From Setaria digitata (lineage: Eukaryota > Nematoda > Chromadorea > Rhabditida > Setariidae), in assembly GCA_003640385.1 (NCBI GenBank), contig RCAB01000032.1, forward strand, positions 124,001 through 188,000: DNA of 64,000 bases, in the 5' to 3' direction. Each line of letters opens with the position of its first letter. Within the stretch, counting starts at the first letter, position 1. This document shows, piece by piece, positions 25,370 through 45,475 of the stretch. The position numbers were made by a program, and so were the translations under genes. Under the pieces are notes generated by a model. The model saw only the letters and a program-made list of their open reading frames with translations, made no database searches and was not told where the DNA came from.

Positions 25370-28300
25370 ATGATTATGAGCCATCTCCGATTGCTCTTAA
25401 ACATATGCTGCGCAGTATTATCCTTCACTACAGTCCTAGGTGGTGGTAATTATGATGCTGAAGCTGATCGAATCATCAGCTTACCGGGACTAACTTATGA
25501 ATCTAATTTTGCACAGTATTCTGGCTTTCTACGCACAAAAGCAGGAAATTTCTTGCACTACTGGTATACTTATTTAAAATATTTTATTAAAACAAGAAGC
25601 TTTCACACAATTCCATCATTTTGCAATACGAAAGATGTGATTTATCAAGAAGTTTGCTACCACTGCAATAAGTACTTTTCAGGTTAATCGAATCTCAGAA
25701 CAAACCATCTAGTGATCCATTAGTCTTGTGGCTTAACGGTCAACCAGGCTGCAGCTCATTAGATGGCCTTTTTGCCCAAATTGGTCCATTTCGCGTTGCT
25801 CAGGACGGAGAAACATTGTTCGAGAATATTTACAGCTGGAATAAGGTCGTTTTATTCATTCATTCTCTTTCCATCACTCGACTTACGATTTTGAGCTTTC
25901 TTGATAAGTCTCAGTGCAACCAAAGTTGCAAATGTCTCACCACTAAGTGAAAAATTGAAAACTTTTATGGCAGTGTAGTAGAAAAATAAATTGAATTTAA
26001 GGCTGCCAATTTAATATTTTTGGAATCGTTTCGTGATGTCGGTTATTCGTACAGAAACGCTTCCGCACGCTCAGATATGCTATGGAATGATGATAAGGTT
26101 TATTTATTACCAGCTTTTCTTAAATTTCCGTTAATCCTTGTTTTTCTAATTTCATCATTTTCTTTTCCAGTTTTATTTTCCACCTTCACTAAATTACCTT
26201 GTTGTTGTTTTTTTTTTCTTTTCTTTTTCAATAGTCATTTTATAAATTTTTTATTGGAAAGTACCATTTCATTTATCAGTTAAGTATCAGTATTTAGTGC
26301 TTATAAGGGCAATAGTGAAAAACNGAAAGTACCATTCCATTTATCAGTTAAGTATCAGTATTTAGTGCTTATGAGGGCAATAGTGAAAAACATAGCATCA
26401 GATAAATAATTCGTCTTTTTTCATGTGTCTAGATAAAATAAAAAATAATCCTGAAAATTTTAAAATAATCCTGAAATATAATATCAAATTATGAGAAGCA
26501 AATTTAACTAAGTTTATTAACTGTGATAAAAACATGCAAATTAGATTGAAAAAAAAAAAATGAAATTTGAGTGATTTAAAACGATTCTAGCAATATTTCG
26601 CAGTTTTGATATGCCGAATATTTATTCTAATGAAAGATTTGGAAAAGATACTTTTAAAAATTAACCATAGCTGTAATCTTTCGTAAATGGCACTCATTCA
26701 CGTGGTAATAAAAAGAAAGATAATGAAATTATCTTTTTTAACTTATATAAGCGTTTTCCAAAACTTTCGGAAAATTGTGTAAGCTCAAGTTTTTCCACAT
26801 CCCGTAATGAATTTAAAATCCTCTCACGCCAAAAGTTCGAATAAATGATACTGGTAGTAATTAGCAATGATGGAAATAAAAGTGTGAATGACTTCTGTCA
26901 ACTGTGTCGCGATATGATATAATATACTTAAGCTCAAAGATAGTTGGGGCATAATGAACAACTGAGGAAGGGGAATTATTCATCTGAAAAGAACTTAGAA
27001 ACAAGACGAAACTAACCAGTAAGTTTTATTAGAATCTGCTGCTTAATTGAATCAATTTAAATAAGTTTGAGTCTTCAGATTTAGGAATTTATGGCCAAGT
27101 TATAACCTTTATTATAAAAAACTTATTCTAAATTCTTGCCTTTTGTCTTCCTAATTCATTTCAACATCAAATTTCTAAAAGAGAACGGCAATGATCTGAT
27201 GGTGATATAAATCAGATAGGCAAGCTGTAATTAGAATAAAATTCTCACCTCTATCAAGAAATCTTCAGTTTCTCCATCGCATACATTCAAGATATCTCTC
27301 TTAATCCTGTGCTACAAGCTAATTCTTTTCCAAACAATAAATTGATCAAGCCAGATGTAAATTCACTAAAATCTTCACTTTCCAACAGAATGAGCCAAGT
27401 ATACTAAAGTTATCAGAATATAATTCAAAAAAATTAAACTATGAAATGTATTAGATTTAAATTGCTGAGTGCAATTCACTTTTAAGATGAAATATCTTTC
27501 TTAAATGATGCCTTTAGACAGTTGAAGATAGTGCCGATGCATTGGAACAATTTTTTCAACGATTCAAAGAATACCAAAATCGAGACTTTTATATCACCGG
27601 TCAATCATACGTGGGTATTTATGGGCCTGCACTAATGGATCTCCTTATCAAGCGAATTCAGGCACTAATATTTCTCGTTTTGTACAGAGATAAACAGTAG
27701 CATATTTAGCAAAGCCTTTTTCTAAAAAGGATAAACTTCCAGAAAGAAAAGGGTTTCCAGAAAGATCTTATGGAATCTGTTACACTCTGGCTTAGTTCTG
27801 ATCATATTCTCGATAATTACTTTTATATTAACCTAGGAGCAGTGTTGAAACACTGGTACTTATTCAGCTAGTTCTTTCAATTTCTGCTCGTAGCTTGCTA
27901 TTCGATATATTTTAAATTAATTTTCTTTTTTCTTTTCAAAATTAATCTAAAATGATATAAAGACGCACAATATTTGTGTACACTCAATAACCACTGAGTC
28001 TAATTAAGAGAGAAAATCGGATAGATAATTATGATATAGAATATAAGCAGCTTCTTACTTCAGCAGAAAGGAAATCCTTATGGCATCAGATTGGCCGGTC
28101 TGGCTATTGGAAATGGTGCTTACAATGAAGTGGATCGAAGAAATTCGATCATTACTTTGCAATATTATAAAGGAATGCTTGATAAAGAGTCAGCTGCTTC
28201 ATTCAATTATTGCTGAGAGTCAATAGCACTGTTTCTCTGCTGAAATTTTGTTGAATAGATCAGTAATGTGTAGAAATAGTTATTTAAATTTAGGTTTCAA

Positions 28301-31300
28301 ATTCACAAATCTAAAAACTTTCAGCACTTGGCTTAGGCTTAGGATTTGGTTTTTCAGAAAATTTAACAGTCTTAGTGAGTGCTGTGCAACGACTCCTCCT
28401 GGCCCTTTATCATATTGCAACTTCTCACAGTACATAAATTGGACAACATATGAACCAATTGATAGCAGTGATTGTGCATCCAAAGTCGTGGACTTGGCAT
28501 TTAATATTCGATTGTATGGTATTCAATCATTTGCTCAACTACCACATTCTTATTGTTTCGCTTTTTAGGTTGAAACATAGTAATGAAATTTTTTTTTTTT
28601 TCTTCTTCTTCTTTTGCATCCTGGAGTTAAAAAAAAAAAAAAAAAAGAAGAAGGAATTGTTGCAAATTTTGCTATATTTAGATTTGAAAGTGTTCAGAAA
28701 TGAGTTGATTATTTATTTTCTTTAAATTTACCATGCGTCTTAGATGATCAAAGCTTCCGGAAACATCGAGAGGAAGGAGTATGAAGAGAAAAATAATTGC
28801 AAAAAATTCATTTTTTTTTTTTTTTTTTGTTGTCATTTCGAGAATCGATAATTATTATTATTATTATTGTTTAAAGCATAAGAAACCAATACTATTCAAA
28901 GCTTCTATGATTGAAAAGTTCAGCTAAACGAAAATCTAAAATATACCCGTATTATCCATTCTTCTTATTTCTGTCTTAATCAGAACATTAAAACGAAACA
29001 AGTTTTTTTTTTTTTTTTTTTTTTCGTTTAAAGAAACTCTTTGCAAGTATTATATCTGAGCATTCGAAATTTTTCAAGGAACAATTCCTTCAATAGCAAC
29101 CAGGATTGCTATATTGATACCTCATTCTTGGCCAAGAACAAAGTATTTGAGACAACACAGCGCCAAACAGAGTTGATGAAATTAAATGATCCAGAAACAG
29201 AATGGAGTGAAAGTTTCATTGACCAAGGTGTACGTCTTCTCAGTTTTCAAAACAACATTTTTGCTTTCTTTCCTTGGTCTAGACTATAAAAACTTTATTT
29301 TCGCTCGACGAAAACCTCCTAGAAACTTAGCAAACCAAAATAAACAGCAAAAAGAACAATAGCAGTTGATCAGTCAATTGATCGGGCCTGATTTTTATCC
29401 CATTTCAGTCCCTCATAAACATGGAATCAACTGATGCACAGTACACTTTCCCATGTTGGATGAAAAAAGCCATGGTAACTTATTTGAATTTACCAGCTGT
29501 TCGTAAAGTACTACATATCCCTGATAATCTCCCACCTTGGTCGATGTGCAGGTAATCGCAGGTTGCATTTTACTGTATCAGTTTAGAAACTTACTACAGA
29601 AAGACTTCTCACAGTTCGGGATAGCATACACTGAGACATTGTGCGACTCTAAATTAAACTCTAAAATGAGTTTAATTCAAGTGATATGTCATTTGCATTG
29701 GCAAGTTAAACGGACTGATAAGTTTAATAACAAAATAGCGAATAGAGAGAGAATAGATAATAGATTCAATTGATACTGCTTAAAAGTATGTCAACTTGCA
29801 ATGCATTTTAGCAAGAAAGTTCTTTCAAACTACAAGAGACAACATTTAGACATGACGCCAGTCTTCGAGTCTATCATTAACACATTGCCAAGTTTGCTTA
29901 TTTTCTCTTTTTCTGAATTCAAGCCCAAAATAAGTAAATTTGTCTTTGAAATTTAGTTAAGATTTTATAAAATCCAGAATGAAAATTTCTCGTTTTATTT
30001 TTATCTCCATGCTTTATTTACATAATGATTTTTACAAATATCAAAATTTACTAAATTTCTGATTACTTATTAACTATCTTGCAGAAAAAGTTTACATTCA
30101 TTTACTTTACTGTCTCAAAACATTTTATTTCAGGTTGTTTTTTTTTTTTTTTTTTTATTCATCCATTGTAAATATGTTACCGATGAAGGTATTTTTTATT
30201 ACAAAGTAATTAGATTAGTTACTATTAGCAATTTTATAACCATATTTTATTTCTTGATTATAATAACTGTCATTTCTACAGTATATCCGTTCAACAATGT
30301 TCGATTTTTGATTTATAATGGTGATGCTGATATGGAATATAACTTTCTGAGCAATGAATGGTTCGTTACAAGGCTTACAGACTACTATCCCAAATCAGAT
30401 CGTAGCCAATGGATCTTTCAAGAAAATCCTAGATTTTTGGGACAGCTGGCTGGTTACTTTCAGCAATTTTTTATCAATGATTTTGTGACAATTGATTTTC
30501 TCACCATAAAGGTGAGCAATTTTAGTATTGCAACAAATGTTCAAGAATTTAAGCTGAAATAATTTATATTTAGGAATTTAGATTATAATTTTTTTTAGTA
30601 TTATTATAATATGTAATTCTGTTGACATCTATTATAGAAATGTTTGTTGTAACTGGTTGGTGATTGACGTGTAGTAGGTATTTCAACTATCAGGCTAANT
30701 ATAAAGGTGAGCAATTTTAGTATTGCAACAAATTTTCAAGAATTTAAGCTGAAATAATTTATATTTAGGAATTTAGATTATATTTTTTTTTAGTATTATT
30801 ATAATATGTAATTCTGTTGACATCTATTATAGAAATGTTTGTTGTAACTGGTTGGTGATTGACGTGTAGTAGGTATTTCAACTATCAGGCTAAATGTTTG
30901 CTAACGAAATTACAATCACATAGATTGCTAGACTCAACGACTGGATAGATTTGAAAAAAAAAAAGTTGTAAGGAAGAGGAAAAGTTCAATTAAATTGCAT
31001 TAATTTTTCAAGGGTGGAGGACAATTTGCGCCGTTAGATCGTGCTGGTCCATCATTACATATGTTCACCAATTTCATTCAAAATCTTCATTACAACGTCA
31101 GCTTTCGTTGGGATACCACGGCGAAACCAATCCTTCCACAATATAGACATGCACCAAAGATAAATCGTAACTTTCATGTTACTTTTTTGTTTAAATCGTT
31201 TAGTTAATTATTTTGGAAAAGTCATTGATTTTTCTTGTTTCACTACAACACTTTACAGAATATTATACTTTTGTGCAACTTATTAGTTTATTTTTAATTA

Positions 31301-34300
31301 ATTCAATTTTGACTGTACTAAAATTTATTTTAGAAAATCTGAAAATATTAGGATTATTTTATTCTTAAAAATATTAAAAATTTACCACGTAGATTGGACA
31401 CAGTGTTGATTACTGTGCTTGAAAATTTGCCTAATTTCCATTTATATTCTCGTTAATGTTTGATGTTGTGCTGTCGAAGCATTTGAAGATCACAAAATTA
31501 CGACATCTAAAGAATTATTGAAAACACTGAACATTTAAGCTAAAAATAACTGTTAAGTAAAAATACTTCAAATTGATTAAGTGTAAATCGGCAATTTGCC
31601 GTATAATAAAAAAAAAAGCACCAATAGCAATTGACATCTTTGATTCATTTTTTTACAATAAAATATGAAATAATTTTTAGCAACTCGAAAGCAGCGTGAT
31701 CGTGTATGGAACCTTCCTGGATTGACCTTTGAACCAGAATTTAAACAATACTCTGGTTATCTCAATGGTGGTTTGGATATCCACTTGCACTACTGGTTGG
31801 TATCATTGACCTATTCCAAAGATGAACTGTTTCCTCGTTCCTGAAAAAATAATTTTTTCATTGACGAGCTTAGTGGTCGTTCATTTCTCAACCTTTCGTT
31901 TAGAGTTTGAAGGTTGATTCCAACTCTCCGATTATTTCTAACCGATCTGATTTCATTGCTGCTAGTGAGTTTTTAGAAACAATTTATCTCACATAGTACC
32001 TTACGAATACTCATATACTACTAACGTGATAAAATTTAATTGCCTACGAATTATAAACTGTAGCTGTTACGAATGATCTTAAGGCTTGTTGAATCACAGC
32101 GAAATCCGGCTGAAGATCCACTGATATTATGGCTGAATGGTGGAACTGGGTGCAGTTTGCTTCACAGTTTCTTTTCTGAAAATGGGCCATTTCGGCCAAA
32201 TCCAGACAATATGACATTGTCTGAAAATAATTATTCGTGGAACAAAGTAAGAAAAAGTATTCTTTGATTTGACTAGTAACTGCGAGGCATTAAATTATCA
32301 GGCTTTCATCATAACTTTCATTTCAATTTATTCTTTCGCATAAAATTGAAAGGACTAATACCTGAAACTGTTAGTGAGTCAAAATTTGGTTCTAGTAAAC
32401 TGCAAGTGAGAATCGAACATAAATTAGCAGCTAATAAAGTCTAGATCAATTTAATCCTTTTAGATAAGGAATATATTGAAATTTAAGAACCAAAAACTTT
32501 TTCATATTAATGACTGGTATTATATTTAAAAATTTCTTCAAACCAAAATGACCTGATAACATCACTGCGATGTTAATACTTCTCTTATGCTGGGAAATAT
32601 ATTACTCGTAAAAATTTGTTAGTAAAAGACCACTTATAATTTTCTCCACTATCAAAAAGAAAAGTAAAAAGTTTTGAGAATTATTTAAGAGTCATTCGTT
32701 TGGTTTGCTGGCTTCATCTCTCTACACTCAGTTACTTGTTCGGAACGAAATGTTCAAATAAAATGAAATGATAAAAAAGTCAAACAAAGGAGAAATGTTT
32801 CTGAGGGGAAATTTCAAAGCTTTCAAAATGATCTAATTTAGAATATCTAATAAATAATGCATTTTTTTTTTTTTGCGATTAAGGAATTAAATAGCTGATA
32901 AATTTCCTTATTGCTTGAAATCAATTATCGCAGTTTATTTCATTTCAGTCTCAAAAAAAAAAAAAAAAATCGTCCTGTTGACCAACTACTTAATAGATGC
33001 GTCTTTTGTTTTCAATTAACAAAATATTTCGATTAAATTAATATGTTAAAAACTTGGAACGACTATACTCAAACTGTTAGCAAAGCAAATAAAATGCAGT
33101 TGTAACGGAATAGTATAATATTTGTTATATTTTTAATTTTTTTTCCCGAACTTTTTATCTAATATTTTTCATATAAATCTATTTAATATTTTAATTTCTA
33201 AATAGTAAGAAAGATTCAAATTTTTGGGCAAAATGGTAGTTGTATTTTAGATAGCAAATATGCTTTTTCTTGAATCATCATTTGTTGGGTTTTCATGGCA
33301 GAATGATTCCTCCAGAAATGATGATTTTGATTTCAACAATGAAAAGGTAAGTATTTTAAGGATTCTAACAATGAGAATATTAAGCTTCCTCATTTTACAA
33401 AACAGGAGAGTGAGTGATAAAAAAAAAAAACTTTAGAAATATCGGATTTGGACCTGATTTCACTCGATCATTTGAGATAGAAGCTGATGAAACTTTTTGT
33501 ACTCTTTTCTTTTTTTTTCTAGACTACTGAAGGTGTTTTCCATGCTTTGATGGATTTCTTGACTGTATTCCCGGAATATATCAACCGGACAATTTATATA
33601 ACTGGCCAGTCTTATGCTGCTGTTCATATCTTAAATTTATCTGCTTTCATTATTGATCAAATCCAGGTAATAATGTGATTGTATTTTGTTAACGTAAGAT
33701 ATATCTTGGCTACAACTGTTGAGTACAAATCTGTCGAGTACAGTCCTAAATTATTGTTAATTATGAAACATTCTATACCACTTCCTTGAGAGTATTCGAA
33801 ATGTAAGCATGTTTTATAATAATAAAAACAAAATTAATTGAAATTTATTCAGATCGGGAATAGTAAAGAGTTGAATCTTGCCGGTATTGCCATTGGAAAT
33901 GGTATGCTAAGCAGAAAGGAACAGTTCAACTCCTTGATGACAATGTTATTCTACCGAGGAATTCATGGCTACGAGTTCGTCTTCTATTAAATGTTCCTTG
34001 TTGAATTCTTAATTTAACCAAAGCTCCATAGCAAAAAAGTTTCCTCTCTTCCACTTCTTCCTCACTTCCTCTTTTTAATATATCACGTTTCAGTCGTCAT
34101 TTGAAGCTTATGGAATGCTGCAAGAATCGCAACATCTCTCAGCCTATAGCGTATTGTGACTTCTCACAGTATGTTAAATTTGATAAGTATGGAAATGTCA
34201 CACCGGTCGAGAACAATACTTGTGCCAGCTATATAGTTTCGTCTGCTTACGATTATATGTGGCAAAATCAGAAAATGTTAATTTTTATTTTCTTCTCGCT

Positions 34301-37300
34301 AAAAATAATATTTTGATCCGAAAAGTAAAAAGTAATTAATTCATCTTAGGGATACGCCGGTTTTTGCTTCAAAGAATTATTGCCGAAAAAAAAAAAAAAA
34401 AAAAAAAACAACTAGCCAAAGGAAAAGGATTGGAAAAGAGCGGTTCTTAATACTAACAACAATATATCAATGATTTTCAATTACTGATATATTACTGATA
34501 GCAATTTCTGGGAAGAGATAAGCGGATAGTTGATTTCAAGAATAGTGAAGGAATCAGAAAATGCAGCCTAGAAATGCTTGCTTCAAATTTCAGGCAGAAT
34601 GTTTACAATTTGTACGAAAATTACTATCATCAAAATGGACTGCTAGGAAGAAAGAGATTTAGTTTAGTTGTTCCAGCAACCTACTTGTCAGTGCATGCAA
34701 ATCAAAGGGTAAGCTATATTTACGAAGGAAAGTTTCAATTGATACAGTAAATACCTGTGGCTTATGCGGTGACACCTGCGACTTCCGCACTGATATCTTG
34801 CAAATTCTAGATGAGGTGTCTCTCTCAAATATCGTCTGATAAATAAATTTTTATCGTGCATCATTTCGTAAACAGGGTTTAATTTTGATTCCCTATAATC
34901 ATTAGTCATCTTCACCAATGACAGATGTTTATATTACCAAGAAGCGATGAATTCTTCTGTAAAATGCCACAACGTAAATTTGTCTTATCACATTTCTAAG
35001 TTTCCGGAAAAATAATTCGGTCGACTTTTATGCGTCAAAATAAGCAGTTGAAAGATTAACAGGTCTAGCTGAAATTTTTCTTTGATAAATGATAATATAT
35101 TTAGTCTAAAATCAATTATAACTCAATTGATGGAAAAGGGAATTTGTATTGGCATGAGTCGTTATTGGCCACAACAGAATATCTAAATCATCCCGACGTA
35201 CGTACTGCACTGCATATTTTGCCTGCAGCTGACAAGTGGACAGCATGCAAGTAAGTTTTAGAATTTTCTAGCTGCTTCTTTTAATGAAACTATCTTGGCG
35301 TAAAGTTTACAAAAGCAATCAGCTGAGTGACCGGTTAGAACACTGGTAATTTAAACGATTTAACTTCAATTTAACGATCTTTTTGTTTTTCCTGAAACTT
35401 TGATTGAGAAATAAAATAAGCTTATCTAATGAGATCATCATAAATTGACATTTTTGGTCAAGTATAAAGTCAATGTAATTTGAGTTGCTTTCCTCTCTCA
35501 TTTCTCAGTTTTTATACGCTGATGAAGTTTATGCAATTTTTTTTTTTTTTTTTTCTTTTTTTGTAAGTACTGGAAGAGAACAGGTGAGATATTTGTTAAA
35601 GTTCTTCATAAAGCTTGATCTTCGCAAGGTGATGAAAAATGAAAATGATGCTGTCACATAATTTTAATTTCTGTAAACAATGAACAGCGTTGCAATATTG
35701 ATGTGTGTGATGTTAGCAAAAAGAGAAATTATCAAAGCAGTCGAAGATGGTTATTGAAAATGTAAAAAGAAAAAAAAAAAAAAAAAAAAGAGAAAGATTT
35801 GAGTTAATACGGGTATTGTTCAAAGCTTGATAAAGAAGCAATTACTAATTAATATCTCTTGCAAGCTAATTAGCAGAAACGATAATATTGAATAGGTTCA
35901 TTGATATATTCAAATGAATGATTATCATTTCACTTTTAATTCATGTCACTTAACAGTTCCTCTATAAATCCCGTGCAGCAGTACAAGTACAACGATACAT
36001 CGTTGATTTTTCAACGCATACTTAATTCGAGTCATCCTTTAAATATTATGATTTATAATGGTGATGTTGATCCAATTTGCCAGTTTCTCGGAGGTTATTT
36101 TTCTTTTCTGTTGTAAATTTCTTCTTCATCTTACTATAATCAGTCTATGTTTTGATGCTAAAGTCTCATTCTGCAAAGTATCAGAGCTGAACAGGCCTAG
36201 ATATTATGGCAACTCAAAAAATGTGTCCCACAAATCACTTGCAGATGAATGGTTTATCGAAAACACAGCCAAAATGCATTCAATGAATACAATTCAACAA
36301 CGAGCACCGTGGACTTATCGTTCACAAATTGTTGGCTATGAAAAAACGTTTCAGTCACCTTCAGGAACTCTTCAGTTTGTAACAGTCAAGGTGGGTTTGC
36401 AGGTTGAACTACTTTATTTGCTACTACTTTTAAGTCTCTACCTTATTAGTGATCTTAGAATAATTTTTTCTGTTGTGAGATGAAGGTATTAGTAGATGAT
36501 AACTTCAAAGAAATCAATGAGATTGATACTTTAAAACACTGAAAATAGACATGGATTAGATAAAATGGCCTAAATTTTGGTATTTGTTCAGATCTCGTAG
36601 TGTCATTCCAAAATCCGATACAAAATGACATGCTGTTTCTCGGCTAACCGTTTTTCTTTTGTCAAATTTAGTAGGGCTCAAAAATAGTTTTGTTACCTGA
36701 CTTCAGGATGCCGGACATTTCGTTTCGCTCGATCATCCTGGACCGGCACTTCAAATGATGAACAATTTTTTGGAACAAACAAATCTCTCAATTCCGATTC
36801 CTGTTAGCACCAAACCGAGTCCATTAAAAAAGCAATACCGAATAATGGATCCGGTCTGTTCTTTTTGTGTTGTTCGTCAAAGCATATTAGAGCTAGCAAG
36901 TAAATCGAAAACACGTCAATGTACCATTCTTAAATAATAAGAAAGAGTCTGTGTGTCAGCTGTATATAAAACGGAATATTTATTTAAATTTTAATTACTT
37001 GCCACAAAAAAAATCTGTCCTTTTCAAAAAAATTGTTGTCAACTACAATTTCATCAAGAACAATTTCAGAATCTCTAGGCTCTTTTTTTGTATATCAATC
37101 CTTACAATATTATATGGATTTATTAGAAGTAATAAATGAAAAAAAAAATACGCAAAATATTAAAATTACTTTTGAATAAGAGAATATATTGTTTAAGAGT
37201 TTTAGTTGAAATTTCAAATATGCTACAGATTACTGCTGGAATTGGTACATCTCATAATAGCACAAAGCAATTTAACAGAGAAGATGAAGCAGATGATAAC

Positions 37301-40300
37301 ATGGAGATGCCAGGACGAACTTTCATGTATGACCTGAAAACCGAGACTGGATATCTGGAGGATGGCCAAGGCAACAATCTTTTTTTCTGGTGGGGAATTT
37401 GTTATGCAAGTGTAACAAGGAATTAGTACAGTGTAGCTTGGCATTTTTGAGCCATAACAGTTCTTCTCAATTAATTAACTGCTGATACCAGTAAAAACAT
37501 CGGAGAGATTTCCTTGGATTTTCAGTTTAGTTTCCTGGCTCAGATTCGCCTGAGTGAAAGCTACGCATTACCAGTTCCTTGCTGCCATTTTATTTGAAAA
37601 TTAGTACAGAATCTTTCGTTCGGACACTTTCACCAAACAATAAATTAAATCGAATAAATATGCATGTGACATTATCAGAAGGATTTGGCATGCTTTTTGG
37701 CAGTCATATTTGAGATCCAGTGGTAAATAGAGATTGCAGATTGTGCCTTGAATGATCGGATATTTTTGTAGTGAGTCTGATCAAATAAACAATGAAATTC
37801 AGGTGGATTCCATCAGCAAATCAGTCAGCTCCACTGATCATATGGCTTGGTGATGGACCAGGCTGCAGCGTGTTATACGACGTTTTCAGCAATATTGGCT
37901 TGTATCGTGTTGGTGCATCCGGAGAAGTGCTATATGAAAATCCATTTTCATGGGATAGAGTAAGTTTTCAGTTTTCTTGCTTTTCCAATTCAATTGAATT
38001 TCATAAATCCAGAAAATTTCTCTTAGACTATGTGAATTGGACAATTCAGACTACTTATGACAGGTAATTCTCTCCTACTCCTTGGGAATTGACTGGATCG
38101 GAATACGGATCATAATGTTCATCAGCGATGCTTGTTGTTATTCCATAAATTATTATATCAATTAATAGATTATCAGTGATAAGCATGTAGTATTATTGCA
38201 GGTTGCCAATATGCTATTTCTGGAAGCGATGACAGGGACTGGCTATTCACCAAAAGTGAATATTGAGTATAGCGATGATCAGGTAAATAAGTTTTTTCTT
38301 TTTTTCTTTTTCAAAGCTTTTATTATGCTAAAAACTATTAGAGAAATTATAAAGAAGACTATTATTTAGGTTGTCAGTGGATTACTTAATGCCATCGAAA
38401 ACTTTTACAAAATAGGTATCGGCTTTAATTTCCGGAGAAACCCTCTATATATATTTGGTCAGGGGTATGGTGGTCGTTACGCTCTATTTTTGGCTCGGAA
38501 ATTAGCTGACGTAAGTTTAAGATTTGTAAACTTTTGCAAAATAACAAATTTTCAAGATCACTGTTCTCAATTTTGATCAAAATGGTTTTGATAAAGTAAG
38601 AGTGTTAGTGTTTGAGTACAGTGAAAAATTGAACTTCAGCATTCATACGTTACATGCCGAGATGCAAAAATATTCCTAACTAAATTAGACTCTCAGATTA
38701 TTCTTACGTTCCATCTGTCATTTAAGATGCCAAAACTGTTATTCACAAAGGAGCTCTAAACTATCCAACTTAATCTATCTTTAGTACACGTCGAACTGGA
38801 AGACTGGAAGAGTAAAACTCTGAAGATGTTGCTTTCTTATTGCTTTGATAACATATTTTAAAAATGTTATATGTGAGAGATATTGAAGCCACTTTCTTTG
38901 AAAAGGATCTTATTGTTGTAAAAGAGAATGAGAATTTAAGCTTAACTAATAATTTTAATTTTTCAGTCAGTATTTGAAATTCCCTTATTGAGAGGTATAG
39001 GTTTGGGCAATTCATTGTTGGATTATGAAACGCTTATTAATATTATGCCAAATCAACTATACTACAACAACCTGCTTGGCAAAGAGTACGGTTCATTTTC
39101 ATTTATAATTCTATTTTTGCCTGTGCTACTTTTCATGATCTATCTTTCTAATTGTTGTATGAGCTCACTAAATGGACATTTAAATAGTTCAGAGTAATAT
39201 TTCAGTGAGTGGGATCAGTTGATACCTTGCTGTCAGGATGAGAATGGAATCTACCAGGAATCATGTCATCTCTTGAAATATGTTTCTATCGATGGCCATG
39301 GTGTTGTAACACCAAAAACTGATTCCAAATGTGCTCAATTTGTTGCTCATTATGCGAACAAAAGGATGTCGAGATTAGCGTATCTTCAAACTACCAATTC
39401 ATTCATTTCTTTACTTATAAAACTGAACTGTTACTTAGCTTTAGGCTAGGTTTAGTGATAGAAAAAAAGATTCGAAATGATGAAGAATTGAGCAGCAGAT
39501 TTTTCACGAAAAAAATCTTCCATTTTATGATTTCAAAGAAACCGTATATACCTATTGTTATTTATTACTGTAACGGGATGTGAATAAACGAGATAGTTAG
39601 CGAAATATCTCAGAAAATTTTCAAAATTTTAAATTCAACATAATATTTTCTAAACTGCAGGAATCTATCGCTGAATATGTATCAAAATTGTTACGAAGGC
39701 AAAATTTCGGTCGATTATAATAACAACCAAGCAGGAGAAGTTAAACGACAAGTTTCACATTTTGGACCACAACCACTGACAAATAATTTCTCTTTCATTA
39801 ATCAACAGGTTAATACAAATTTGAAAAAGTTGCACTTTCTTTCACTGTCTTTAAATATGTGTTTTATGTTATCTGTTTTTTCACTGACTAGCATCTTTAA
39901 CGGGCAATTTTTTAATCTCTTCCATCAAGTCAATAGAGACTTTTCAATCTTCCAAATTTCTCTGGTGCTCTTAATTCGGAATAATATTAATTACTAGTTG
40001 ACGGAAGCCTATCCTTGCTACATGGATAGTGCAATTAGCACATATCTCCGGTTGGATGCTGTACAAAAGTGGTTTAATATTTCTGATAACACACCGGAAT
40101 GGCAAATATGCAAGTAAGCTTTTAACCAAGATCCATTCGAAAATTTCCGAATTTTATTTTTTGAATTTAATTTCCTGAATCTCTGTAACTTCATAATGGC
40201 ATTTATTACACGTGCAATATTAACTTATATTCCTTTTTTCACGGAAAAATGTCTAATGTCTAACGATGATTGAAGAGCTAAGTTTCAAATTTGATAAATC

Positions 40301-42234
40301 AGACCTTCCTTACTGGTAAGAAGGTAAGAGAAAGAATTGCCAGGAATCAACTAATAAAGGAATATTAATTAATTCAATGAAACAATTACTTTTTAGTCCA
40401 TCGTTGTCTTACAATATACAATTTACCACCGATATGTCAAAGACAATTAAAGCAATTATTGAGCAATATAATAAAATTGATATTCTTGTATTCGATGGTG
40501 ATAGCTATTTGGGTAGCAATTTCCTTTCAAGTTAGTACCTTTCTGTGTCCTGTTGTATCAGTTTGCTCTCTGGAATATATATATCTCTTCAGCTTATTCT
40601 TATCTTTTTCAAATTTCTTCAGAAATGCAACTTTTAACTGTTGCTAAAGATAAGATAACACGCTCCACTCATAGCAGACAGGAAATGTTGACAATGAATA
40701 AAAATTTTTAAGATGCAATTTTCCTTGAAACACTTGCCAAGGAGATGGAAATGAGAGTAACAGAACAAAATCCTTTTACTTATCAAGAGCGAAATGCCGG
40801 CTTTGTAAGATCATTTACGCATAATCTTACTGAAACAACCATTCATCTTCTAGCATTAAAGGTTTTTTTTTTTTTTATTCTGCTTACTTTTGAACATAAC
40901 TAAAACTTCTCAGTATAGTCTGTGTGATTAGCTTAAGTGGTCCAAATGATATGATAAGGCTTAGACGGTAGAGTGCCATAAGATTGCTCGAAGTGGTGAA
41001 ATGAGATGAATGTATTATTAACCTTTAGGCATTAATCTTTTTGATGGTTTAAATCTTAAAAGAACCTTTTCGTAACAAGACTAACTATGAGATATTTTAT
41101 AGTAATGAATTCAGGGTGCTGGCTATCACATAGGTTTGGATCAGCCAGCAGTGGCTCTACAAATGATTGCCAACTTCCTAGGTCATCCAGGCAATGAAAC
41201 GCAAGAAACTCCACAACTACGTCAAATACTTCCACAATATGAGCCAGAAGAACCACAACAAGGTAAGGCCATCAGCTTTCATTTATAAGTTTTGATTTGT
41301 TGTTCGGAATCTGAAACATTTCTGTCAAAACATGTTCTATCTGTTATAATTTCTCAAATTTCAATAAAAATTTGTAAAAATTCAGGAGAGGAAAGTCATT
41401 TACTTTTCGATTTACATTGCTTAGAATTAAATTAGCGTTTAATACAAAAATGGCTTTCTTTTCAATTTCTATCTCTCAAAAAATGCTAAAATTAATCAGT
41501 CCTAAAGGTAGGATTTTTGAAACGCTATACGTATCAATTTCAATTCTATTCTATCTGTTCTTCACTTTTAAAATCTAATTAATTTTTTGGGTTTACTTTT
41601 TTCAGTTTCTTAGTTTTAGTGTCAAGACGGGAAGCTGATGAGATATTTGACTTACCTGGTCTAACATATGCCATCAATTTCAGACAATATTCAGGATTTT
41701 TGAAAGCTACAGAAGGAAATTATCTTCATTACTGGTGAAAAGCTTTTATTTTTTATCTTATAAACATTGAGAAACTACATTGCTGATTTTTTTTTTTTTT
41801 TTTGATAATTTTTGTTAATGATTTGATTAGGTTCGTGGAATCACAAAATGATCCCAGTAATGATCCAGTTATAATTTGGTTTAACGGTGGTCCAGGATGC
41901 AGTTCGATGGCTGGTTTATTGATGGAAAATGGTCCATTCCATACAAATCCTGATGGAATAACTTTATTCGAAAATGTATTCTCTTGGAATAAGGTAACAA
42001 TTGCAGAAGAATTTGTTCATGTGAATTATTTCGCGAAACTGTGAAGGAAGTTAATAAAATAGCAAAATTTCCAGATGGCAAACGTTTTATACATCGATTC
42101 ACCACGGCAAGTTGGATTTTCTTATCAGAACCATACCATTAATCCAAGCTCCACATTCAATGACGCACTGGTATTTTCATTCTTTTTTTACTAATCTGAA
42201 TCTGAATTTTCTTGAAGCTCTAACGATTAAACCG

Positions 42235-42266
<32 letters not shown>

Positions 42267-45200
42267 CCAATATTGATATTTATATAGCAATTCTTGATTT
42301 CTTCACGGTCTTTTCCAATTTCAAAAATAACCATCTGTATATTGCTGGGGAATCGTATGCTTCTGTTTATGTTTTGAGACTTGCAACGCATATAATTCGT
42401 GAAATTCAGGTAATATTTTAATCAGCTAGGGGAAAAATTAAATTGATCATAACAACTCAGTTAAGTTTCATGTATTATTCAAAATCAAATGTATTAAAAA
42501 ATTTTACACTTTATACACCCCGGTGTAATGCAAAACCAGTGTGCTAGATAATTCTTAGCTGACATATTGTTTCATCAATGAGCTGATAGTTCAAGAAGAA
42601 CTAAATCGAAAATATAGTGCAAGTAATGATCACTGTTATAGCCATCGATATGCCGCCGATCATTTTATAACATATCACATAGAAATTTGAATTTGCATTA
42701 AAGTATTTCATCAAATTTAGTAGAATTGCAATATTATGAACCTTTCCACAAATGCGTGTTTCAGATAAACAATGTAGAACTAAGCTTGAAAGGAATAGTT
42801 GTTGGTAATGGCTATTTTAGCACCATTACGGATGTTAGTTATTATGTTTATATGATTAACTTCTTCTTTTAACTTCTTTAAATTTTTCACTGAAAAACAT
42901 AATCGAGTAAAAATTGCATGTTTCAAAATTATAGCTTATAGAGCTTAAAATAAAACAAAACATTCTCAAAACTAACTGTTTAAGAAAGAAGCAAATTTCG
43001 GAGTAATTCATACTAAAATTTGTTTTAATTTAGGTTCGATCAATATCTGATTACCTCCACTTCCACGCTATATACGGAAAAGAGTATGTCTACATACGTT
43101 TGTTTTTTTGAAAGTTGCTCCAAGTAGAGATTTTCCACAATATATGCTACTTATTTGGAAGATAACAGGAACATTTTGCTTCTTTTTAGAGTTTGGGATC
43201 AGTTGCAGCAGTGTTGTCCACAACGATACGAAGGCAAACCAACAGTGGAATGCTCATTTGAGGACTACATTCTGATCACAGATAAGAGAGATATTGTGCC
43301 AAGACCGGAAGCAAATCAAACTTGTGCTCATCTTGTTGTCAGTCTTGCTACTACAGAATTCCTAGAGACAGTGTTCGTCTTTTATTTTTTTGGAGTCATC
43401 TTTATGTGCATCGGCTTTTATGCTACAAAATATGCTGCCAGGAGTTATTTGAACGAAGAAACTTCTGAAAAGAAACTTGAAAGAACTACTCTGCATTTTT
43501 GGCTACGATTTATGGCTTAGATTGCAAAAGATCTAAGCTGCTTTGAAAGTTTGGAAATAGATCATTATCAATACTTTCAGGGAAGACCCATACAACATAT
43601 ATCAAGACTGTTATCAAGAGACAGAGCCTATCTTACCGTTTCGTTATCATCATCACAAACATATCTTGCGTAGTGGAAAGCGTCAAAACAAAGCGCAAAC
43701 ATTACGAGCTGATGCTAACACTGCATACAGAAAGGTGAACGATTCTCTTGCTGTTTTTGCAAGAGAAATTTTACTTCTTGAGCTGATCTGCTTACATATG
43801 TCTAAAAAAATTCGAAAAAAAAAAAAAAAAACTGATATTGGAGTTCATTCTCGAATTCATCATTGATGAAAAAAATCACTTCCTCTCTTTTAGCCATGGC
43901 CTATTCACACACGTTCAACTGATGCACTTGGCGGTTTTCCGTGCTACATGTACCGGACCACAACTAATTATCTGAACCAGGCTTACGTTCGGAATGCTCT
44001 TCATATACCTGCTTACATCCAACCATATGAACTTTGCAGGTAAGCGCCATCTTATACTAAATGCTTCTGAACTGGAAACATCTCATTAATTAAAATCAGT
44101 GCTTATTTCGAATGATAATTTAGCAGCGCCATAAACGCCGTCTACAGCAGTTTGGACAGTGATACAACACCACTGTTGCAACAGTTGCTTGATAGCAATT
44201 ATCCATTACGGGCACTATTTTACAATGGTGATGCTGATACGGCTTGTAATTTTCTGGGAGTTGAATGGTTCGTGGAACAGTTTTCAAAGTCAAACAATAT
44301 GGTAAGTGTGACTAGGAAGAGTAGAAGAATTAAAAGATCAGCAATGCAATAGTGTTTGAATTGTGCACTGATTACGATAGAGGCACAGAAACAGGAAAAA
44401 TAAATGAAACAGCAGTTAACTGTCAATTATTGAAATTCATAATCTTTATAAGTCTATCGTAAGTTTGCAGAAAATCAAAATTTTTACTGCTATCGAAATA
44501 GATGAGAGAAAGAAAATCTGAAATATCTGTTGAACAGGGTAGATTCTACAACCAATCCTTCTCAACTCCATGTTCAGTTGGTTGATTTTTTTGAGTTATA
44601 AAAATATTTTAGAATACGAGTGAGAAAGATACTTGGCTTTACCGATTAGGAACGCAGCGATCGACACAGATTGCTGGTTACAAAAAGATTTTTGAGAAAA
44701 ACGAACTAAAAATCGATTTTGCTACTGTTAAGGTTCTATTATTACATTGATTATCGGTTTATAAAATTGATTTTTGAAAATTAAATTCGCATTTGATGTG
44801 CAAGAACATATCGAAGCTTCGGTAATAAAGAATTATTCAGAAAAAGAAAAAAAAAGACCTGCAAAAGAAAGATTGCAATAGATTAGCCTTATTCTCTAAA
44901 ATGAAATCAGCCTTTAAAATCTTACAACAATATTCTCTAATTTAGGAACTATTCTTTAAATTTCAGTTACTTCTGCAAAATTTCAGCCATTCCATTAATA
45001 GCCAGAGGTGTCGACAGTTCTGCGAAGCAAATAATAATAAATAATTCTTTCAACAAATTTATAGGGTGCCGGCCATATGGTCCCAATTACTCGTTCTGGT
45101 CCTGTGCTCCAACTGTTAACAAACTTTGTACGTCAGAACGATTACGATGATGCGCTACTGTTTAGTTTGAATCGACAGCCTCTTCTGTCACAGTTCAACG

Positions 45201-45475
45201 TATGTATGTCTAATTCGCATTTGGAAACTTTTGAAAATTTGAATCATTGCAGCTTTCAATTTGAGCATTTATCCGATGAATATAATAAATCATAGGTATA
45301 AGTTAATGCTGAGGACTACAAACTAGACAGTTCAGATCACTGATGAACCAGTAGCTAAAGAACTGCTCTTGCCAGCCTCATTCGTCTTTCGTCCTTTAAT
45401 TGTTTTAGTCCTTAATTAATTTGCGCATTTTAGCGAACCACCGATATCTCTCGCAAAATCGAGCTCAGCATGTAA
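25370..45475 (+). CDS. Four-module serine carboxypeptidase (S10) polyprotein
   Basis: Forty-six exons (11+11+11+13) join without a phase break into 6,327 bases, about 2,108 residues. Residues 1 to about 25 form a signal peptide ([17 protein letters not shown]), so the product should be secreted or lysosomal. Four S10 modules of about 520 residues follow, each with a start like [17 protein letters not shown], a GGPGCS-type loop, a GxSY-type serine motif, an NGDxD-type aspartate motif and a GAGH-type histidine motif. Equivalent exons have the same lengths and phases (for example 163, 96, 144 and 122 bases). The three introns between modules are all phase 1 (31167-31680, 36900-37205, 41263-41619), which argues for one gene. 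Module 4 is canonical; 1 and 3 are degenerate. C. elegans K10C2.1, as I recall, is a similar large protein. S10 enzymes remove C-terminal residues at acid pH. One donor (27662, GC) and five AAG acceptors are unusual. Confidence 0.9.
26257..26391. repeat. 67-bp direct repeat split by a single N
   Basis: 26257-26323 and 26325-26391 differ at two bases and are separated only by an N at 26324. It lies in an intron of carboxypeptidase module 1. It looks like an unmerged contig overlap rather than a biological repeat. Confidence 0.9.
30506..30895. repeat. About 190-bp direct repeat split by a single N
   Basis: Sequence from 30506 recurs from 30701 with only a few changes; an N at 30699 lies at the join. 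The first copy starts inside the end of the tenth exon of module 1 (ATAAAG|GTGAGC), so the donor itself is duplicated. Probably an assembly artefact or two unmerged alleles. Confidence 0.9.
31681..36899 (+). other. Carboxypeptidase module 2: triad present, atypical loop
   Basis: Exons: 31681-31795, 32084-32246, 33251-33346, 33523-33666, 33853-33974, 34094-34276, 34594-34708, 35105-35250, 35957-36093, 36245-36390, 36707-36899. It has Ser (ITGQSYAA, about S699), Asp ([11 protein letters not shown], about D944) and His (DAGHFVSLD, about H1004). The oxyanion loop is NGGTGCSLL instead of NGGPGCSS. One carboxylate-site glutamate is kept (FFSENGPF) and the other is Gln (GQS). Activity is possible but probably altered. 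An in-frame stop at 36935-36937 lies just past the end. I read past it by splicing at A|GTAAAT (36899/36900) to TTTTAG (37205), both phase 1 like the other module joints. Confidence 0.85.
37206..41262 (+). other. Carboxypeptidase module 3: pseudoenzyme lacking all three catalytic residues
   Basis: Exons: 37206-37389, 37803-37959, 38202-38282, 38370-38510, 38967-39085, 39206-39367, 39661-39808, 39998-40113, 40397-40530, 40713-40861, 41115-41262. The serine motif is IFGQGYGG (Gly at about 1237), the aspartate motif is [11 protein letters not shown] (Tyr at about 1471), and the histidine motif is GAGYHIGLD (Tyr at about 1532). The loop is GDGPGCSVL. The fold signature residues around these sites remain, and the frame is open through eleven exons, so the module is under constraint for something other than catalysis. 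It has an N-terminal acidic linker ([11 protein letters not shown]). The tenth exon follows TTTTTAAG rather than CAG. Confidence 0.88.
41620..45475 (+). other. Carboxypeptidase module 4: canonical S10 catalytic domain
   Basis: Exons: 41620-41734, 41831-41993, 42075-42170, 42266-42409, 42765-42833, 43034-43083, 43190-43372, 43581-43734, 43894-44039, 44124-44301, 44613-44732, 45065-45199, 45434-45475. All diagnostic motifs are intact: [28 protein letters not shown] (about S1732), [13 protein letters not shown] (about D1989) and GAGHMVPI (about H2054). Both carboxylate-site glutamates are present (ENGPF and GES). This is the only module predicted to be fully active. It has one intron the others lack, splitting the exon after the GNG motif (42834-43033), and a short C-terminal tail ([13 protein letters not shown]). 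The expected conserved acidic residue after GHMVP is Thr. Confidence 0.92.

Follow-up and report, generated by a model that had tools for sequence, protein, structure and literature searches.

Cathepsin A, the lysosomal protective protein (CTSA), is an active carboxypeptidase of a single S10 module that forms dimers and enters a complex with beta-galactosidase and neuraminidase. Carboxypeptidase D, a metallocarboxypeptidase of the unrelated M14 fold, has tandem domains, one of which is inactive yet conserved. Judged by recorded sequences, the arrangement of four S10 modules in one protein is already known in nematodes as the K10C2.1/ctsa-4 type, which occurs in free-living and parasitic species; Caenorhabditis elegans K10C2.1 is presumably a protein of about 2300 residues with four modules. 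In one report, RNA interference against K10C2.1 did not block the clearance of aggregates that was tested. Here we describe a four-module gene in a stretch of 64,000 nucleotides (the window) of the probably filarial nematode Setaria digitata (assembly GCA_003640385.1, contig RCAB01000032.1 or C246, positions 124001-188000; the genome comprises 75.6 Mb in 976 contigs). The gene, located on the forward strand at window positions 25370-45295, probably encodes a single secreted carboxypeptidase of the cathepsin A type in which modules 1 and 3 are catalytically dead, conserve the fold and have a non-catalytic role, a reading that we hold with moderate confidence. In outline it is similar to carboxypeptidase D.

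A spliced-alignment script, in which exon placement relied on homologous proteins as a guide, gave a single model of 45 exons and 2131 amino acids, free of stops before the last codon and with a stretch at its N-terminus that, judged by eye, resembles a signal peptide. Each module matched the Pfam profile PF00450 (Peptidase_S10) over nearly its full length, with 360, 344, 220 and 378 bits for modules 1 to 4 (cut-off 21.9 bits). From the spliced model, the Pfam matches and the residues, module 1 (exons 1-11, including the signal-peptide-like start) was placed at 25370-31166, module 2 (exons 12-22, with the start of the central linker) at 31681-36899, module 3 (exons 23-33, preceded by the end of the central linker) at 37206-41262, and module 4 (exons 34-45, down to the stop of the read-through model) at 41620-45295. 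A sequence-only reading of this stretch had proposed four S10 modules in one polyprotein, and the profile matches, the one open frame and the linkers at two of the three junctions, which are like those of a fused Dirofilaria protein, supported it. The matched exon phases that it had reported hold for modules 1, 2 and 3, whose exon-end phases are the same (2,0,0,0,2,2,0,2,1,0,1; 11 exons each), but not for module 4, which has 12 exons and a different pattern. Chance or mis-spliced frames were ruled out by the profile scores, the exon phases and the matching linkers. In the spliced model the G+C content was 0.39 in exons versus 0.29 in introns, and the first codon positions had the highest G+C in every one of the four modules.

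The active-site residues were compared using the numbering of yeast carboxypeptidase Y, in which we take S146, D338 and H397 to be the catalytic triad and E65 and E145 the carboxylate-binding site. The triad reads S, D, Q in module 1; S, D, H in module 2; G, Y, Y in module 3; and S, D, H in module 4. The pair E65/E145 reads Q,Q, E,Q, N,Q and E,E, respectively, so both glutamates are kept in module 4 only. These residues were read as codons on the forward strand. Module 1 has Ser (TCA) at 27605, Asp (GAT) at 30329 and, at the position of the catalytic His of its homologues, Gln (CAA) at 31022-31024. Module 2 has Ser (TCT) at 33610, Asp (GAT) at 36069 and His (CAT) at 36716, and module 4 has Ser (TCG) at 42353, Asp (GAT) at 44236 and His (CAT) at 45074. 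In module 3 the catalytic Ser, Asp and His positions are occupied by Gly (GGG, 38463-38465), Tyr (TAT, 40506-40508) and Tyr (TAT, 41124-41126). Codons and alignment agreed in every cell with the residues listed by the sequence-only reading. The Ser-Asp-His triad of an active S10 enzyme is complete in modules 2 and 4 and incomplete in modules 1 and 3; by these residues, modules 1 and 3 belong to S10 as a sequence family, not as enzymes.

Both dead modules appear to be under purifying selection, with the fold kept. Compared with Dirofilaria immitis, module 1 showed 69% (P0018_1), 67.5% (P0024_1) and 61% identity (P0011_1, half of the module), modules 2 and 3 showed 61% each, and module 4 showed 60% (P0018_2), 64% (P0024_2) and 79% (P0011_4, 113 columns). 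One alternative sees modules 1 and 3 as decaying passengers on which selection has been relaxed and which stay open only since a frameshift or a stop would remove module 4. Passengers need only remain in frame, yet over whole modules the identities of module 1 (69%) and module 3 (61%) to D. immitis are as high as those of module 4 to its paralogues (60-64%). Between the window and D. immitis, module 3 is identical at 92 of 123 positions (75%) in columns conserved elsewhere versus 80 of 183 (44%) in variable columns (p 5e-8), and the same contrast held in all seven pairs tested; substitutions that avoid the columns conserved in active modules argue against passengers, as do the conserved cysteines, eight of nine of which are retained in module 1 and eight of nine in module 3. 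In a neutral simulation (300 runs per module), modules 1 and 3 were never free of stops, with at least six stops in module 1 and at least nine in module 3. This simulation cannot tell whether the constraint lies on the module itself or comes from the requirement for an in-frame module 4, and the active module downstream would by itself account for the lack of stops and frameshifts; the identity comparisons can make this distinction. The proposal that the inactive modules are kept was supported in that modules 1 and 3 remain folded-looking sequence whose evolution, by the identity to D. immitis and the substitutions that shun conserved columns, looks non-neutral. Because the fold is kept and selection appears to be purifying, modules 1 and 3 probably have a job that does not require hydrolysis.

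The distribution of the losses was analysed over 68 columns conserved across 81 reference modules, of which modules 1 to 4 keep 60, 55, 45 and 63. With nine active-site columns that were picked from known S10 biology after the losses were visible, losses were concentrated in the active site of module 1 (5/9 such columns vs 3/59 other conserved columns, p 0.0006) and of module 3 (7/9 vs 16/59, p 0.005), with no such enrichment in module 2 (1/9 vs 12/59) or module 4 (0/9 vs 5/59). In D. immitis P0011_2, four of the nine active-site columns and 15 of the 59 others were lost.

In a 41-row tree the stem of module 3 measured about 2.3 changes per column (2.0 and 0.28 on either side of the drawn root), and 0.93 in an 86-row tree built with a simpler model; after the stem, 0.34 changes per column were found on each side. 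The stems of the other filarial modules were 0.39, 0.56 and 0.63 and the end branches of the window modules 0.25, 0.26 and 0.36, stems that are not strictly comparable in that those of modules 3 and 4 start before Thelazia, for which no module 3 or 4 was found. A fast stem followed by slower change is the pattern expected after the gain of a new function. Together with the Ser and Asp still present in module 1, it would fit a second alternative, namely that modules 1 and 3 retain some hydrolase activity by a different mechanism or have another substrate. Module 3, however, is without the Ser, Asp and His of the triad and its carboxylate residues are changed, and we consider residual hydrolysis very improbable.

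The origin of the losses was traced by comparison with other nematodes. In the 41-row tree (mixture model, quick search) each window module grouped with its counterparts at that position in other nematodes, the support of position groups 1 to 4 in the Shimodaira-Hasegawa-like approximate likelihood ratio test being 87, 97, 99 and 99; in the 86-row tree, with its simpler model and more divergent rows, module 3 and its D. immitis partner fell outside their position group on a long branch. The nearest relative of each window module is from D. immitis, with whole-module identities of 60-69% (P0011, P0018 and P0024) against 48-51% for Thelazia, values from which the window species would be filarial. 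Module 3 of the partial four-module D. immitis protein P0011 shares with that of the window E65N, E145Q, S146G and the loss of D338 (Asn instead of the Tyr of the window), and has a His in the H397 column; module 2 of P0011 has His where window module 2 has Gln before the Ser. Module 1 of P0018, a two-module paralogue and not the four-module orthologue, shares E65Q, E145Q and C341Y with window module 1. It has lost the Ser and kept the His, whereas window module 1 has lost the His and kept the Ser. D. immitis differs from the window in its extra two-module genes, P0018, P0024, P0060 and P0061, which represent positions 1 and 4 (by the tree for P0018 and P0024, by identities for P0060 and P0061). 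The first modules of these four proteins carry Gln-Gly in place of the usual Glu-Ser, as does P0037, whose position was not placed. In the partial Thelazia protein P0067, whose coverage excludes the His of module 2 and modules 3 and 4, D, C and H are canonical in the covered half of module 1, and E65, E145, S146, D338 and C341 are canonical in module 2. On these comparisons the losses are placed mostly on the filarial branch, those in modules 1 and 2 being later than the divergence from Thelazia. Since Gln-Gln is common to module 1 of the window and of P0018, the triad residue lost differs between them and Thelazia is canonical, it is likely that in module 1 the carboxylate site was lost first and the triad later, through different residues.

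A search with the draft polyprotein returned 58 related proteins, 36 of them with four modules: 34 nematode records of several clades, P0028 and one oomycete protein (Achlya). The source records use the name 'Protein K10C2.1' for one Aphelenchus protein and 'ctsa-4.1' for one from Dirofilaria. With 34 four-module nematode proteins, the architecture is not the unusual one supposed from the window alone. Proteins of the K10C2.1/ctsa-4 type (A-type), such as P0001 of Nippostrongylus, P0012 of Ascaris and P0002 of Steinernema, resemble the window protein in their four modules, in the short-long-short order of their linkers and in the grouping of modules of the same position. Unlike the window protein with its two dead modules, they have nearly all triads intact, and many end in a tail that is rich in Thr and Ser and hydrophobic at its C-terminus, possibly a membrane or glycosylphosphatidylinositol signal. 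In a chosen set of 22 non-filarial A-type proteins, 83 of the 86 covered modules had an intact S/D/H triad (19/20, 22/22, 22/22 and 20/22 for positions 1 to 4; two modules uncovered). The exceptions were P0017_4 and two modules, P0025_1 and P0023_4, in which the gene model seems to be broken at the site concerned. Outside this set, 17 further nematode-like proteins, mostly partial, had 30 of 37 covered modules intact; the seven others were P0038_2 of Steinernema glaseri, P0044_4, P0047_4 and P0056_2 of Mesorhabditis, P0049_2 of Ditylenchus, P0054_2 of Aphelenchus and P0055_2 of Panagrolaimus. These seven and P0017_4 may be further dead modules of independent origin, although errors in gene models might account for some of them, and three of the eight have Gly for Ser.

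A second four-module family (B-type), formed by 12 proteins (P0026-P0034, P0036, P0041 and P0042) of Caenorhabditis, Nippostrongylus, Necator and Haemonchus and presumably including C. elegans Y16B4A.2, is like the window protein in having a dead module. In module 1 the Ser is replaced by Gly in 12 of 12 members, with both Glu retained in 11 of them, and the triad is intact in all 35 covered modules at positions 2 to 4. B-type modules differ in that they stand apart from those of the window type in the tree, in which four of the 12 proteins were used. Tandem S10 proteins with dead modules thus occur outside filariae as well, in the B-type family and in single cases elsewhere in nematodes. The loss of two modules with alteration of a third was not seen in any complete non-filarial four-module protein examined; Mesorhabditis P0044 and P0047, in which module 1 is also aberrant, come near to this pattern. 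The four S10 modules of Achlya hypogyna P0050 have all triads intact and lie apart from the nematode modules in the tree, which places this protein as a separate tandem amplification. Among records of about 555-1766 aa, a search scored with module 3 matched only one insect protein and D. immitis P0011. Among the titles listed in literature searches, whose coverage left out most subscription journals, none described S10 modules of nematodes that had lost activity.

The three junction introns, all of phase 1 with GT-AG ends on the forward strand, are placed at 31167-31680 (modules 1-2), 36900-37205 (modules 2-3, within the central linker and the least certain of the three) and 41263-41619 (modules 3-4); the spliced model reproduced the coordinates of the sequence-only reading to within about one base. 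Splicing of the first joins PKIN-P-TRKQRDR, like D. immitis PAPKTITTRKQHDRI, and splicing of the third rebuilds a linker like D. immitis PEKPQLVSRQLADQIFD; it is at these two junctions that the linkers match the fused Dirofilaria protein. A third alternative is that the locus holds no polyprotein but at least two separate genes or members of an operon (modules 1-2 and 3-4, or single modules). At the central junction the module 2 exon, if read onward, runs into a stop at 36937, and position 37136 holds an in-frame ATG. Two-module paralogues do exist in D. immitis, and AATAAA, which may recur by chance in this A+T-rich sequence, occurs in all three junction introns. On the other hand, the stop-to-stop frames that open module 2 or module 4 contain no in-frame ATG, the phase-1 GT-AG introns rebuild D. 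immitis-like linkers at two junctions, and in many nematodes the records of the relatives, most of them gene predictions, give a single continuous chain. We therefore regard separate genes as improbable, less so than residual hydrolysis but more so than decaying passengers.

For release of the modules by processing, which the sequence-only reading had suggested, a check of the linkers found no good site in the central linker of the window protein (no dibasic, no RxxR), and the junction of modules 1 and 2 has one RKQR. In a set of 35 proteins (34 of nematodes and P0028), RxKR was present in the central linker of 10 and absent from all short linkers. As the central linker exceeds the short ones several-fold in length and that of the window protein has no such site, cleavage there by a convertase was rejected as a general rule. 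The observation made from the sequence alone was confirmed, and its interpretation was partly supported.

Some details of the gene model are less certain. The donor of exon 4 is either a weak GC (27661|GCACTA) or a weak GT 15 bases downstream, and both preserve the frame. The 3' end is uncertain: the start at 25370 of the extent first proposed (25370-45475) was retained, but the read-through frame of module 4 stops at 45295, and reaching 45475 needs one more putative exon. Single N bases are present at 26324 and 30699, both in introns of module 1 and outside the coding sequence, flanked by near-identical repeats of about 70 and about 190 bases as judged by eye; they look like contig joins with a duplicated overlap. 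A profile search of the genome found one other S10 locus (L009, C194:47778-52855, reverse strand), a single-module cathepsin A with canonical motifs (GESYGG, GDTDMAC and GAGHMAP) and two doubtful small exons at its end.

By sequence, the best solved relative of module 3 and of the module 4 pieces is CTSA (PDB 1ivy, 4ci9), which differs from the window protein in being a single, active module. Structures were predicted with AlphaFold2 for two two-module relatives. D. immitis P0018, with its Ser-less module 1 and intact position-4 module, gave well predicted cores, a mean predicted local distance difference test score of 79.7 and a predicted template modelling score of 0.56, and the best PDB matches of the model were cathepsin A; for P0048 the two scores were 79.0 and 0.55. 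With template modelling scores of 0.56 and 0.55, a rigid pair of a dead and a live module like the cathepsin A dimer was unsupported. Roles of the dead modules in regulating, inhibiting or scaffolding the active one, raised by the sequence-only reading, are thus hypothetical.

Several observations weigh against conserved, non-catalytic modules in a single secreted protein. Over the 113 N-terminal columns for which the four-module D. immitis orthologue of module 4 is known, identity to D. immitis was 77% and 76% for module 1 (the 77% being to a paralogue), 74% for module 2, 70% for module 3, and 79% for module 4 to its orthologue and 74-84% to its paralogues. Module 3, the least alike over these columns, is perhaps under slightly weaker constraint; it also keeps the fewest of the 68 conserved columns. 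The choice of the nine active-site columns was made after the fact. The His to Gln change of module 1 is a single codon in a single assembly, and the N-terminal half of module 1 (with its Ser) and most of module 4 lie outside the partial record P0011. No confident module-module packing was found in the models of P0018 and P0048. The hydrophobic C-terminal tail of many relatives was not found after module 4, where a further 3' exon is possible, and the central junction may mark the border between two separate genes. For decaying passengers speak the difference between module 3 (70%) and module 4 (79%) over the same 113 columns, the very long stem of module 3 with its few conserved columns kept, and the losses of module 1, which are lineage-specific (His in the window, Ser in the D. 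immitis paralogues). Because of the 113-column comparison, our estimate for passengers was raised slightly and that for a non-catalytic role was lowered slightly; the passenger explanation, the main rival, is still considered unlikely.

From the anatomy of the protein, its residue losses and its conservation, we infer a division of labour among the modules. All four would descend from active enzymes, and along the line to the window species and Dirofilaria, modules 1 and 3 would have lost catalysis and module 2 the usual Glu before the Ser, with module 4 remaining canonical. Module 4 would act on peptides in the gut lumen or an acidic compartment, trimming residues from their C-termini, and module 2 would cleave with altered carboxylate recognition or specificity, or not at all. 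Modules 1 and 3 would do something that does not require hydrolysis, and as structural or peptide-binding partners might supply folding, stability or peptide capture. As for the setting, three reports place S10 peptidases of Ascaris in fractions of the intestinal lumen and of the apical membrane (PMC4287503; PMC6669237; PMC4046973), and a fourth lists C. elegans Y16B4A.2 as a carboxypeptidase among intestinal proteases (PMC8705817).

On a wider view, which we put forward tentatively and with less confidence than the non-catalytic role itself, a gut carboxypeptidase polyprotein may have become a mostly non-catalytic secreted protein in filariae. The burst in module 3, whose whole active site was replaced before it took up the pace of the other modules, might reflect a new binding function, and module 1 would have been switched off differently in two lines. 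Dead modules in tandem S10 proteins would then be recurrent and kept, as in filariae, in the clade V B-family and in single cases in Steinernema glaseri, Mesorhabditis, Panagrellus and others, often with glycine for the nucleophile. What is new here is the filarial pattern of loss, the four-module design itself being ancient and common in nematodes. With four orthologous positions, the gene offers a tractable case of pseudoenzyme formation within one polypeptide, in which active relatives in Ascaris, Thelazia (modules 1 and 2 where covered) and Caenorhabditis can be compared with inactive descendants in the filarial line. The losses also suggest that much of a protein with a carboxypeptidase annotation is probably no such enzyme, with consequences for inhibitor targeting and for the reading of activity data.

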